Part shown: piece by piece, positions 1 to 4,428 of the stretch
Layout of the letters: every line of letters begins with the position of its first letter
How positions within the stretch are numbered: the stretch's first letter is position 1
Assembly: GCA_019454165.1 (NCBI GenBank)
Contig: CP075367.1
Location: 1,962,805-2,026,804, forward strand
Source of the DNA: Anaerolineales bacterium
GTDB lineage: Bacteria > Chloroflexota > Anaerolineae > Anaerolineales > UBA11579
DNA: 64,000 nt
Direction: 5' to 3'
The notes under the pieces: generated by a model
What the model was told of the DNA's origin: nothing
The model's input: only the letters and a program-made list of their open reading frames with translations
The model's database searches: none
Made by a program: the position numbers and the translations under genes

Positions 1-931
1 GCTGGGCATAGCCGACGAGGGCGGCCGCGTCTTCAAAGCCGGTGCGCAACGCGATGATGGCTTCGGGGAAGGCGGCGGCGATGGCGGTGTAGAGCGCATC
101 ATCCCAGCCGTGCATCTCAACGACGCGGGGGGTGAAGCCGAGCTGGCTAAGCCGTGGTGCGTCGTGCGGACGCACCACCGGCACAACGGCGTGGGCGTAT
201 TCGCCCAGGCCGATGGCGTGCTCAAAGGGCAGGACAGCCAGGGTATCCAGCTCAGCGGCGGTGCGGGCATAGATGTGCGCGGCCGGCGAGTTGCCGGGCA
301 GGTCACCGCCATCAAACAGGATCGGCAATTGAACGGATACATAGTGCGGCAGGCTGCCGGTGGGTTGGCCAGCGGCGTCGAATTGCAGGAAGTTGGGCGT
401 GAAGCCAATATCCACAACGGTGGAGATGGTCTCGCGGCCGTGGATGCCGTCACGCGTGGGGCGCACGATCTCAGACATGTCGGTCCACATGCCGTCCCAG
501 CCCTCGCCGCCAAACTTGCCGCGATAGCCAGCGCCACGCACGGGCACCAGGCCGCTGGACGCCTCGTAAGCGATCTGGTCTACATAGTTGAAGGTGAAGT
601 ACGAGTCGCCCAGTTTCTGGCGTTCAGGGTTGTGCTCGATGCGAACGAACTCGGGGAACTCGGTGGTGCAGCGCAGGCAGCCGACGCAGTGCTCCTCGCG
701 CGGCATGAAGCCGCCCACCGGGCCAGAGAAGACGCCGTACATGCAGGGCCGGCTGAGGATTACGTCTTTGCGGCCGCGGTAATGCAAAACTTCAGATAAA
801 AGGAGTTTGGCCAGGCCGGTGCGGCGCACCTTGACCTTGAAGCGGCTGGGCCACTTCTCAATATCAGGGGCAGGCTTGGTGGGGATGTGATAGCGGTGAT
901 AGCCAGCCGGTGCTTCTCGATGTTCAGGCAT
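1..931 (-). CDS. FMN-binding glutamate synthase-family protein, C-terminus cut off by window edge
   Basis: The frame reads from an ATG at 931 leftward without a stop to base 1 (310 codons seen). The N-terminal part has a cysteine set at about residues 63, 82, 85 and 88 (SRPCMYG, HCVGCLRC), consistent with an Fe-S or metal site. It is followed by text typical of the archaeal-type glutamate synthase domain (GAGYRGKFGGEGWDG, MSEIVRPTRDGIHGRE). Members of this family bind FMN and transfer ammonia or electrons in glutamate synthesis or a related reaction; the exact substrate cannot be told from the part seen. AGAAAGG before the ATG is the likely ribosome site. A strong terminator ends only 14 bases before the start, so the gene is either expressed by readthrough of the structured RNA upstream or controlled by it. 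Confidence 0.85.
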   Translation of the reverse strand, partial: MPEHREAPAGYHRYHIPTKPAPDIEKWPSRFKVKVRRTGLAKLLLSEVLHYRGRKDVILSRPCMYGVFSGPVGGFMPREEHCVGCLRCTTEFPEFVRIEHNPERQKLGDSYFTFNYVDQIAYEASSGLVPVRGAGYRGKFGGEGWDGMWTDMSEIVRPTRDGIHGRETISTVVDIGFTPNFLQFDAAGQPTGSLPHYVSVQLPILFDGGDLPGNSPAAHIYARTAAELDTLAVLPFEHAIGLGEYAHAVVPVVRPHDAPRLSQLGFTPRVVEMHGWDDALYTAIAAAFPEAIIALRTGFEDAAALVGYAQ

Positions 932-944
932 ACACAACCTTTCT

Positions 945-983
945 GCCCAAAAAAACCAAAATGGGCACGCAGGGCGTGCCCAT
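945..983 (-). terminator. Rho-independent terminator between the structured RNA and the glutamate-synthase-like gene
   Basis: A perfect 10-bp stem (961-970 with 974-983, 3-base loop) is followed on the minus strand by TTTTGGTTTTTTT. It has no matching U-run on the plus strand, so it works for minus-strand transcription only. Its end almost touches the ribosome site of the gene starting at 931, the geometry of an attenuator. Confidence 0.85.
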
Positions 984-1398
984 TAAATCCATCGAGTCAC
1001 ACCCTTCCAAAGTGGGAAGTACCGCAACGCGCCCGCGCGGGCGGGTTGCACCACTGCGCCGCGCTCTGTGCCGCCGGTCACCCGGCAGTTTTTCTGCGTC
1101 GCTTGTTTTGGAAGGGAGAAACGAAGCCCGTGGTCGGGCTTCAGAGGCATCCGCTGATCTATGCTGTTGTTGGCGGCTTGACAGCCGCCCACCACACCAT
1201 TTATCGATTTTCGCCGGCACTACTGCCAGCTTATCTCCGGACTTTCACCGGTGGCGCCGCACTACCAACGCCAGCACCATCTCTGGTGCAAGAACCTCCA
1301 CCTCGTACTCTGGCTGCCAAGGTGGCGTCCATCACAAGTGATGGGCGCCGCCGCAGGCGGCAAGAGCCAGCCGCTTGTTCTCCTATTCAGTTGTTAAC
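948..1398 (-). ncRNA. Unidentified ~450-nt structured RNA (leader or stand-alone ncRNA)
   Basis: This 525-base gap holds no convincing gene but is dense in local stems when read on the minus strand. They include a hairpin with a GAGA tetraloop near 1283-1298, a GTGA-loop hairpin near 1070-1083, 7- to 8-bp stems near 1120-1142 and 1170-1190, and a long-range 10-bp helix pairing 1107-1116 with 1002-1011 that encloses its own stems. A near-consensus promoter lies just upstream and a strong terminator ends it. I could not match it to RNase P RNA (no conserved 3' ACAGAA...GGCTTA), tmRNA (no tRNA-like ends), 6S, SRP or T-box RNA. A central GGTGAAAGTCCGG hairpin superficially recalls cobalamin riboswitches and group II introns, but neighbouring conserved parts are missing. 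Confidence 0.6.
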
Positions 1399-1404
1399 AG
1401 CAGG

Positions 1405-1434
1405 ACTATACCCGCAGGGACGAAGGGCTGTCAA
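1405..1434 (-). promoter_or_regulatory. Promoter of the structured RNA
   Basis: On the minus strand, TTGACA (1434-1429), an 18-base spacer and TATAGT (1410-1405). Predicted start of transcription is near 1398. This is one of the best sigma-70-type promoters in the window, which argues that the RNA is made at a substantial level. Confidence 0.7.
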
Positions 1435-1457: not shown

Positions 1458-2843
1458 CTACATGTCTTCTTTGGGAGCAGGCGCAGGCACCCCGCCCTTT
1501 TCTACAGCCGAGCGCAAGGCTTGAAAGGCCAAGGGGTCTATGCCAGTGCCCACCTGCCCTTCCAGCAGTTTCAGCGCCTGCTCCGAGGTGAGCGGGGCGC
1601 GATACGGGCGCGGCGCGGTGAGCGCTTCGTACTGATCGGCGACGGCGAGCAGACGGGCATCCTGCGACATTTCGCCGCCGGGCAGGCCGCGATGGTAACC
1701 GCTGCCATCCAGGCGCTCGTGGTGGGCACTGGCCACCTGGGCCAGTTGGCGGAAGCCGCGCACCCGCTCGAGGATGCGATAGGTGTATTCGGTATGGGAG
1801 CGCATCTGAGCCCACTCGGCATCATTGAGCTTATCGGGCTTGTCCAAAATGGTGTTGGAGACGGCCAGCTTGCCGATGTCGTGCAGGAGGGCCGCCCGCG
1901 AGAGGTCACGGCGGCGCTCAGGCGGCAGGTTGAGCTCGGCGGCCATCAGGCGCACGATCTCGGCCACGCGGGCCGAGTGGCGGCTGGTATAGGGCGACTT
2001 GGCGTCGATCACGCGGGCGAAGGCCTCGGCGATCTGGTCGAGCTTGTCCTGGTCGGCATGCAGAATGCGATCGGGCGGCTCGTAGGCGCCGATGTCCGTG
2101 ATGAGTTCCTTGGAAGCGAGCTTCTCCCAGAACAGCTCGTCGTGGGCGATGGTGTCGAAGAACAGGTCCACCAAGGCCGGATCGAACCAGGTGCCGCGGC
2201 GTTGGCGCGCCACACGGCGGGCTTCCTCCGGGCCATAGGCGCTGTAGAAGATCTCGACGGTTTGCGCAAAACCGAGCACGCGCCCCAGCAGCGAAATCGC
2301 CTCGCCCTTCTTGCCGAGCGGGTTGCCCTTGCCATTCCAGAGTTCGTCGAGGTCGAGGATGGCCTGGGCCGTGTCCTCGGGGAAGCCGAGCTGGCGGGCG
2401 ATCTCTGCGCCGCGCTCACAGCGAGTGCGGATGAGCCCGCTGGAGAGCGTGGTGGCTTGCAGGCCGAGGCCGAACAGGCGGCGCAGACGCGGCAAGAGCG
2501 GCTCGCCGCGGCCGGCGGCGCGCAGCAGGTACAGCCCGCTCTGCAGCAAGTTGGAAGAATCAATGCGCTTGAGCTCGAGCTTGGTGGTGCGGTCATCCGC
2601 GCCGAACAACGAGGTCACCTTGGCGGCGTTGCTGGAGCAGCCCAGATCGCCCAGCAGCAGCGCGTAGAACAGCGCTGAGCGCTGGTCTGAGCTGAGCTGC
2701 ATGTGATCGGCGAGGGTCATGCCGATCATGCAATTGCGGATGGCGTGGCCTTCGGGTTGATCTTCGGTGAGGTCGAGCGCGTAGGTCAGCGCAGAAAGCA
2801 CCTCAGAGAGACGAACATCTACAGAATTATCGGCTTGTGGCAT
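1458..2843 (-). CDS. Tandem HD-GYP protein: degenerate N-terminal copy plus intact C-terminal cyclic-di-GMP phosphodiesterase-type domain
   Basis: The 461-residue soluble protein ends in a clear HD-GYP domain with HDIGK at 321-325 and HHERLDGSGYHRG at 374-386; this family hydrolyses cyclic di-GMP using a metal centre. Residues about 35-200 look like an eroded copy: GDLGCS near 65 stands where HDIGK should be and ELWNGKGNPLG near 167 where HERxDGSGYPxG should be, so the first copy has probably lost its metal ligands. No receiver, PAS or membrane segment is seen, so its input signal is unknown. It lies 25 bases after murJ on the same strand and is probably cotranscribed. No good ribosome site precedes the ATG. 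Confidence 0.85.
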   Translation of the reverse strand: MPQADNSVDVRLSEVLSALTYALDLTEDQPEGHAIRNCMIGMTLADHMQLSSDQRSALFYALLLGDLGCSSNAAKVTSLFGADDRTTKLELKRIDSSNLLQSGLYLLRAAGRGEPLLPRLRRLFGLGLQATTLSSGLIRTRCERGAEIARQLGFPEDTAQAILDLDELWNGKGNPLGKKGEAISLLGRVLGFAQTVEIFYSAYGPEEARRVARQRRGTWFDPALVDLFFDTIAHDELFWEKLASKELITDIGAYEPPDRILHADQDKLDQIAEAFARVIDAKSPYTSRHSARVAEIVRLMAAELNLPPERRRDLSRAALLHDIGKLAVSNTILDKPDKLNDAEWAQMRSHTEYTYRILERVRGFRQLAQVASAHHERLDGSGYHRGLPGGEMSQDARLLAVADQYEALTAPRPYRAPLTSEQALKLLEGQVGTGIDPLAFQALRSAVEKGGVPAPAPKEDM

Positions 2844-2868
2844 AGGAGGGAAAACGAATGATAGCGGC

Positions 2869-4428
2869 TTAACGCTTCAAGCGGGCGCGGGCTTGGGCCA
2901 GCACGCTGGCCAGCTCCGGCACGCGCAGCAGCCAGGCCGCGGCGGCGTAGACGGCCAGGCCGATAGCAATGCCACCGGCGGCCTGCAGCCACAGCGGCCG
3001 GGCCGCGGCGGTGGCCAGCCAGCCCAACAAAGCGGCCAGCATGGCCAGGCTGGCCAGTGCGGACTGGCCGGCACCGCCCAGCAGGCGCGATTCTTCCAGG
3101 CCGCCCAGGCGGCCGCGCATCAGCCAGAGCAGCACCAGCATTTCAATGAAAGTAGCGGCCGAGTTGGCCAGGGCCAGGCCGCCGTGCGGCATCAGCCCGG
3201 CGCGGGCAAAGAGGCCGGGCAGCGTCAGGCTGAGGACCACATTGAGCCCCATCGCCCCCACCCCCACCAGCACCGGAGTGCGCGTGTCTTGCAGGGCGTA
3301 GAAGGCGCGCGAAGCGATCTCCACGATGGAGTGGCCGACGAGGCCCGCGGCATACCAGAGCAGCGCCCAGGCCACGAGCTGGGTATCGTCTGGCCCGAAC
3401 TGCCCGCGCTGGAACAGCAAGGCCACGACCGGCTGGCGCAGCAGGATGAGGCCGATGCTGGCCGGCAAGGCGAGGAACAGGATGCCGCGCAGCGTGCTGA
3501 CCAGCGAGGAGCGCAACTCGGCCAGGTTACCGCGGGCGAATTGGGCCGAGAAGGTGGGCAAGGCGGCGATGGCGATGGCCTGGCCGATGGCTTGCTGCGG
3601 CATGAGCATGACCGAGAAGGCCACGGTGATAGCCGCCAGGCTGCCGGAGGCCATGCCCGAGGCGACGATGGTGTTGACCAGAAAGTTGAGCTGCACCACC
3701 GCCACACCCAGCAGACGGGGCGCCATGAGACGGCCCACCTGGCGCACGCCGGGGAGGCGCAGCCCCAGGGTGGGCGAATAGCTGGGCCGCAGGCGCAGCA
3801 ACGCGGGCAACTGCACGCCGAGGTGCAGCACCGCGCCCAGCACGGCGCCCCAGGCCAGGCCGTGAATGCCCATGCTGGGCACGAAGATGAAGATGCTGAG
3901 GATGATGCCCAGCCAGAGCATGCTGGGCGCCAGGGCGGGCAGGAAGAAGCGCTGGTTGGCATTGAGCACGCCCATGAGCAAACCGCTCAGGCCGAAGATG
4001 ACCGGTGTGAGTAGCTGGATGCGCAGAAGTTCGACGGTCAGGGCCTGCTGGGCCGGGTCGAACTGTGGCACGAGCACGCCGCCGACCAACTGCGGGGCGA
4101 AGAACCAAGCCAGGGCCGAGATAAGGGTAAGTGCGACGGCCACCAGATTGGCAACGGAGGAGGCCAGCTGCCAGGCATCCGCCGTCTTTTGATTTTCAAG
4201 ATAGCCGGTGAAGGTGGGGATGAAGGCCGAGGCCAATGCGCCGCCGGCGATGAGGCTGAACAATATCTCAGGCAGGCGCGAGGCGGCGTAGAACGCGTCC
4301 AGGGCGGCATCCGTTCCGAAGGCGCGCGTGATGAGGATCTGGCGCAGCAAGCCCATGAGGCTGTTGAGCACGAACGCGAACATCACGGTGCCGGCAGCGC
4401 GGGCGATCTGGCGGGTGGCGTTGGACAT
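2869..4428 (-). CDS. murJ: Lipid II flippase MurJ/MviN (first of two copies)
   Basis: A 519-residue polytopic membrane protein, the usual length for MurJ, with the family start (TVMFAFVLNSLMGLLRQILITRAFG is spread over residues about 14-38) and the MviN-type segment near 50 (SRLPEILFSLIAGGAL). MurJ moves lipid-linked peptidoglycan precursors across the membrane. Many alternating hydrophobic stretches are visible to the C-terminus. It is followed closely by the HD-GYP gene. A TATAAT box 8 bases before the ATG suggests a leaderless message. A second full-length MurJ is encoded at 56237-57802, so one of them may move another undecaprenyl-linked substrate. Confidence 0.93.
   Translation of the reverse strand: MSNATRQIARAAGTVMFAFVLNSLMGLLRQILITRAFGTDAALDAFYAASRLPEILFSLIAGGALASAFIPTFTGYLENQKTADAWQLASSVANLVAVALTLISALAWFFAPQLVGGVLVPQFDPAQQALTVELLRIQLLTPVIFGLSGLLMGVLNANQRFFLPALAPSMLWLGIILSIFIFVPSMGIHGLAWGAVLGAVLHLGVQLPALLRLRPSYSPTLGLRLPGVRQVGRLMAPRLLGVAVVQLNFLVNTIVASGMASGSLAAITVAFSVMLMPQQAIGQAIAIAALPTFSAQFARGNLAELRSSLVSTLRGILFLALPASIGLILLRQPVVALLFQRGQFGPDDTQLVAWALLWYAAGLVGHSIVEIASRAFYALQDTRTPVLVGVGAMGLNVVLSLTLPGLFARAGLMPHGGLALANSAATFIEMLVLLWLMRGRLGGLEESRLLGGAGQSALASLAMLAALLGWLATAAARPLWLQAAGGIAIGLAVYAAAAWLLRVPELASVLAQARARLKR

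Follow-up and report, generated by a model that had tools for sequence, protein, structure and literature searches.

The window analyzed here is a 64,000-nucleotide stretch of the genome of an Anaerolineales bacterium, and near its left edge the minus strand encodes a structured RNA of ~450 nucleotides (~1398 to 950) that is real and has the parts listed in Table 1. A preliminary description had reported a strong promoter, a terminator ahead of a glutamate-synthase-like gene and a 10-bp long-range helix, and all three are present. The promoter matches 11 of the 12 consensus bases and is the only promoter-like site between 700 and 1700 (0.2 expected), and -35/-10-like sites also occur upstream of family homologues; we infer a transcription start near 1398. 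The helix (1116-1107 with 1011-1002) appears in the predicted fold and is kept in relatives as CCCUUCC/GGAAGGG. The gene that begins at position 931 is followed, outside the window, by genes for a 433-aa Glu_synthase protein and then a GATase_6 plus GXGXG protein; the operon encodes glutamate synthase in split form, as two Glu_synthase proteins and one GATase_6 plus GXGXG protein, and is presumably controlled by the RNA. The same-strand genes upstream of the RNA (1458-4428) encode an HD-domain (HD_5) protein and the lipid II flippase MurJ.

Table 1. Features of the RNA locus, in window coordinates.
Feature	Position	Strand	Basis
Promoter TTGACA-18-TATAGT	1405..1434	-	consensus match, 11/12 bases
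Leader GGAGAA, 5' strand of P0; partner UUCUCC at 1120-1115	1378..1383	-	leader/post-P3 complementarity exceeds permutation, both classes
A-1|GCG-G4-CUG, cleavage-site equivalent and P2.2 5' strand	1368..1375	-	alignment of relatives
P1 hairpin, enlarged	1307..1367	-	P1 covariation in relatives
ACGAGGUGGAGGUU: P2.1 5' strand (1305-1303), active-site G's, P2 5' strand (1299-1295)	1293..1306	-	invariant core, P2 covariation
Two added hairpin domains, P2a and P2b, in the P2 loop	1213..1292	-	alignment of relatives, covariation
AAAAUCGA: P2.1 3' strand (UCG, 1207-1205) and glmS ligand-pocket A/U	1204..1211	-	numbering from PMC7125110
Genus-specific insertion between P2.1 and P2.2	1160..1203	-	comparison of relatives
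UCAGCGGAUGCCUCU: 3' strands of P2.2 (1156-1152) and P2 (1147-1143), and G57 (1151)	1143..1157	-	core conservation, covariation
P3 hairpin	1123..1142	-	covariation in relatives
CCCUUCCAAA: aptamer-closing helix, 5' strand (the long-range helix described earlier)	1107..1116	-	conservation, predicted fold
P4 hairpin with glmS internal loop AAAAC...CACAGAG	1056..1104	-	RF00234, 26.9 bits, E 2.2e-4
Switch strand UUUGGAAGGGUGUGA; partner is 1116-1107 (aptamer) or terminator 5' arm (antiterminator)	997..1011	-	alternative pairings
Intrinsic terminator AATGGGCACGCCCTGCGTGCCCATT; stem 984-960, T/U tract to ~950	950..984	-	sequence
First gene of the operon, Glu_synthase-like, ~470 aa, running beyond the window edge	1..931	-	ATG at 931

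The window has no Rfam match at the gathering threshold. A permissive scan of the region returned one significant match, to the P4 hairpin of the glmS ribozyme, whose score lies below the RF00234 gathering score of 37; the same hairpin is the sole glmS-family match when the Rfam glmS model is run over the whole genome. DNA searches of 24 family genomes recovered homologues from 15. Their common motif order is AGCGRCUG - P1 - ACGAGGUGGAGGUU - hairpin - GCUAA - hairpin in the first half, and GAAAAUCGA - AUCAGCGGAUGCCUC - P3 - CUCCCUUCC - AAAAC/GACAAAG hairpin - GGAAGGG - terminator in the second, and the shared motifs are recognizable as the glmS ribozyme core (GACGAGG, AUCGA, GGCGGAUGCC and AAAAC...GACAAAG). 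Covariation was assessed in an alignment of 13 simple relatives with seven helices, in which 96.4% of the paired cells can pair, 21 pairs show changes in both partners and the covariation score is 0.487 as compared to 0.207 for shuffled and at most 0.164 for slid controls; conservation and covariation in relatives, which the preliminary description had named as a check, were thus both found. The strongly covarying helices are P1, P2, P3 and the pair of added hairpins. P2.1 and P2.2 can form in every aligned relative yet are invariant, and because both strands never vary their pairing rests on homology. Helices P1 through P4 of glmS and its double-pseudoknot core are therefore present, P1, P2 and P3 by covariation and P4 by RF00234. 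A model built from the 13-relative alignment (R1) scores 51.7 bits on the window copy (E 2.7e-10 in its genome), and matches 22 of the 24 family genomes as well as 344 of 400 genomes of the order, commonly twice per genome.

Relatives of the window RNA match the glmS model at full length. Over the whole core (positions 1-167), RF00234 scores 47.7, 46.6 and 42.9 bits on the glnA-linked copies L082, L085 and L098, and 41.4 bits on the family homologue L014, so that the cut-off of 37 is passed by some of these RNAs and failed by the window copy. Taken together, sequence comparison places the window RNA within the glmS ribozyme superfamily, as a member that has diverged and grown larger, rather than in an unrelated new class. 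The earlier claim of an undescribed class thus needs to be divided: the fold, which had been overlooked, is that of the glmS ribozyme, whereas the subclass, with its own core nucleotides, regulon and added terminator, looks undescribed. A faint resemblance to HEARO RNA that had been seen in GCATAG...GCGGATGCC dissolves, as this stretch is the 3' side of glmS P2.2/P2. HEARO/omega RNA (RF02033) is unmatched in the permissive scan and in a genome search whose controls also matched nowhere, and RNase P RNA has no match at the locus in the permissive scan, the genome's RNase P lying elsewhere (207.7 bits).

glmS ribozymes are common in the phylum, with matches in 143 of the 400 genomes searched. 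Nearly all of the matches examined lie directly before glmS, and the few located away from it led us to a second class of RNAs, here called variants, to which the window copy belongs. Variants resemble the glmS ribozyme, a GlcN6P-activated self-cleaving riboswitch, in fold, helix order, invariant active-site and pocket nucleotides and the P4 internal loop, and share with the glmS-linked ribozymes of Anaerolineales the P2a/P2b hairpins (P2a is enlarged in the window genus) and the GCUAA joint. They differ from the glmS ribozyme by the two added hairpins, a terminator and antiterminator, a position 4 that is never C (the bulge has moved to 4, or a U-G wobble forms) and a freely varying residue 26. 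Counting RNAs aligned with R1, and glmS-linked RNAs only where they were anchored, position 4 is C in 62 of 62 glmS-linked RNAs and G, A or U in 65, 10 and 4 of 79 variants, respectively, while residue 26 is G in all 62 of the former and U31/G27/C14/A7 in the latter; the window copy has G at position 4 (1371) and U at residue 26 (1307). Several glmS-linked RNAs that R1 aligns poorly read C4 by eye, with L113 too diverged, and perhaps G at this position, and three others giving no position-4 reading. Genomes of the order commonly carry two copies, one with an AGCGC core before glmS and the other with a position 4 that is not C. The window genome fits this pattern, as an AGCGC/GACGAGG leader lies immediately upstream of its glmS, far from the window locus. 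This leader (near 1780394, L033) has large insertions and is missed by both RF00234 and R1.

A-1, G1, C2, ACGAGG (both G), U43, C44, G45, G56 and G57 are invariant in the 79 variants, and we take them to be pocket and active-site nucleotides of glmS, on the basis of PMC7125110 and general knowledge of glmS structures. In one further case the cleavage-site A is lost: the variant before amtB (L235, 200-636) carries U for A at -1, with GCGUAUG as its 5' strand. We had considered the G-to-U change that precedes ACGAGG as loss of the general base, and dropped this idea, as the numbering of PMC7125110 places it at residue 26, which takes part in a base triple, and the active-site G's are unchanged. 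Canonical P2.2 consists of C2-G56, G3-C55, C4-G54 and C5-G53 with a bulge at position 6 (numbering from PMC7125110). The Watson-Crick pair C4-G54 is absent in every variant; in the variant sequence GCG[R]CUG/UCAGCGG, pairs C5-G54, U6-A53 and G7-C52 can form instead, with the purine at position 4 bulged. In glmS, mutation of the three P2.2 pairs beside the cleavage site harms cleavage most and a bulge at position 4 rescues it partly, and the C4A mutant is rescued ~24-fold by A6C (PMC7125110), presumably through the same register shift as in the variants. Because P2.2 is shifted while the pocket and active-site nucleotides are kept, self-cleavage of the variants may be weakened, and the ligand may or may not remain GlcN6P. 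An additional helix, P0, pairs the leader upstream of the cleavage site with the strand that follows P3 (1383-1378 with 1120-1115 in the window), such that a cleaved leader would remain paired. P0 looked specific to the variants at first, but its complementarity beats permutation (uncorrected for relatedness) in variants and glmS-linked RNAs alike.

The variants are associated with a regulon of their own. Among 135 distinct variant cores, 99 are upstream of glnA (within 3.6 kb), 20 precede the glutamate-synthase gene seen at the window locus, one is upstream of amtB (PF00909, E 2.8e-121), two precede a gene for a 44-46 aa peptide, one precedes a MOSC-domain gene and 12 are at a contig edge; none of the 135 has glmS downstream. 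The sample holds one genome per species, many of them related, and these counts are not independent events. The variant before the MOSC-domain gene (L221), which has a terminator, is alone in falling clearly outside the nitrogen regulon. The short peptide follows terminator-less variants (L267 from Longilinea arvoryzae, L179 and L183), ends in MDxETIEILLxDxIATGG, has no Pfam match and recalls the small proteins under cyanobacterial glutamine riboswitches. In one family (L203, L206-L209, L212, L213, L215 and L218), the variant is followed by an operon-like series of an Ada/OGT-like gene, an EamA transporter and glnA, and in L097 a 6S RNA (594-769, 47.1 bits) lies directly upstream of the glnA-linked variant. 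Over GTDB species genomes, the variant-specific pattern is found, after R1, in Chloroflexota only, including the cultured Longilinea arvoryzae, Bellilinea caldifistulae and Levilinea saccharolytica; matches outside this phylum (L259, L273, L292, L305 and L309) are not matched by R1 and were set aside as chance. The target genes are similar to those of glutamine riboswitches types 1 and 2 (the glnA and Downstream-peptide motifs of cyanobacteria), which act on nitrogen metabolism, ammonium transporters and small proteins that control glutamine synthetase (PMC6316151). No sequence relation to them was seen, and neither type was matched when the region was scanned permissively against Rfam.

One of the two readings offered in the preliminary description, a large leader acting on the enzyme gene through attenuation, is supported: the terminator is conserved, and an antiterminator that excludes it can form. 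Among 80 variants, 62 have a terminator in the 330 nt downstream, as compared to 3 of 66 glmS-linked RNAs. Ahead of it, the strand GGAAGGGNNN pairs with either the post-P3 CCCUUCC or the 5' arm and loop of the terminator (AYGCCC); its GGAAGGG portion is conserved, and the two pairings exclude each other. The switch strand pairs with its own terminator arm at -11.6 kcal/mol as compared to -10.2 kcal/mol for permuted sequences (p 5e-5, n=47, uncorrected for relatedness), and compensating changes between the two strands produce GGGUGU/ACGCCC, GGGUGC/GCACCC and GGGCAU/AUGCCC. When the 3' part of the window transcript was folded in silico as it grows, the aptamer-side helix appeared first, the predicted fold shifted to the antiterminator with 150-155 nt of the 3' part out (only the 5' arm of the terminator), and the terminator won once complete. 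The predicted energies in the window are -15.8 kcal/mol for the antiterminator and -18.3 kcal/mol for the terminator; because the antiterminator is often the less stable of the two, control must be kinetic. In sequence and predicted energies, the hallmarks of an attenuating riboswitch are thus present: an aptamer-like domain, a terminator and a mutually exclusive antiterminator. Some glnA-linked variants (L082, L085, L097, L098 and L102) must work otherwise, because they have no terminator.

We conclude that the window RNA is probably a cis-acting, glmS-derived riboswitch that controls nitrogen-assimilation genes by transcription attenuation. The glmS homology, covarying helices, distinct core signature and regulon, enrichment of terminators and exclusive pairings support this reading at the sequence level, and we infer ligand control, the direction of the switch and its co-transcriptional timing. 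In the proposed mechanism, the glmS-type double pseudoknot (P1, P2, P2.1, P2.2, P3 and P4) would fold first. If the aptamer is stabilized, presumably by a metabolite whose presence indicates ample nitrogen, the CCCUUCC/GGAAGGG closing helix would hold the switch strand, the terminator would form and the glutamate-synthase operon would be off. If it is not stabilized, GGAAGGGUGU would pair with the 5' arm of the terminator (ACGCCCU), which would block the terminator and leave the operon on. The predicted order of pairing has the logic of an OFF switch, in which an aptamer-stabilizing ligand would favor termination, and it makes sense for genes of nitrogen biosynthesis and uptake to be controlled in this way by a signal that nitrogen is sufficient.

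Other explanations account for parts of these data. It is unlikely, though worth weighing, that the variants are ordinary GlcN6P-dependent, self-cleaving glmS ribozymes that moved to nitrogen genes, where cleavage at A-1|G1 would lead to mRNA decay and the terminator would be secondary. The known pocket and active-site nucleotides are all kept, terminator-less glnA copies fit cleavage, and GlcN6P control of glnA would be sensible, as GlcN6P inhibits enterobacterial glutamine synthetase (PMC6316151); however, the missing C4-G54 pair, for which a bulge at position 4 compensates only in part (PMC7125110), the amtB variant without A-1, and a conserved terminator and antiterminator that would be superfluous all argue against it. 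A stand-alone, trans-acting structured RNA, independent of its neighboring gene, would also be expected to have its own promoter and a strong terminator, but it is very improbable given the alternative pairing of the switch strand with the terminator and the same-strand link to a nitrogen gene in nearly every genome, even though the gene varies (glnA, glutamate synthase or amtB). That the RNA is a wholly new class resembling glmS by chance is scarcely credible: the window copy lacks an Rfam match at the gathering threshold, but its close relatives match RF00234 over their full length with an identical motif order, and the glmS-linked ribozymes of the same bacterial order carry the same added hairpins.

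Within the reading of the variants as attenuating riboswitches, a narrower proposal, to which we would give not quite an even chance, is that they are glmS-fold aptamers, non-cleaving or impaired in cleavage, that sense a nitrogen signal other than GlcN6P (e.g. glutamine) and attenuate glnA, glutamate synthase and amtB across Anaerolineales. GlcN6P is a serious candidate beside glutamine, because the glutamine synthetase of enterobacteria is classically subject to cumulative feedback inhibition by it (PMC6316151). If the glmS-fold aptamer proposal is true, a ribozyme has been turned into a conventional riboswitch.

Searches of open-licence papers for glmS with glutamine synthetase, glmS with Anaerolineae and altered-ligand variants returned no description of such a class, and a glmS subclass with different core nucleotides, a different regulon and an added terminator looks undescribed. 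This sister class keeps the pocket but has a shifted P2.2 register, its own regulon and a terminator, and it coexists with the glmS-linked ribozyme within single genomes; the link between ligand binding and catalysis is therefore directly testable. For genome annotation, it is a warning that a match to glmS need not mean glmS regulation. Throughout an order of Chloroflexota, it seems that a well-known ribozyme was redeployed to turn nitrogen assimilation on and off, which would give many uncultured and cultured members of this phylum a previously unrecognized nitrogen switch.
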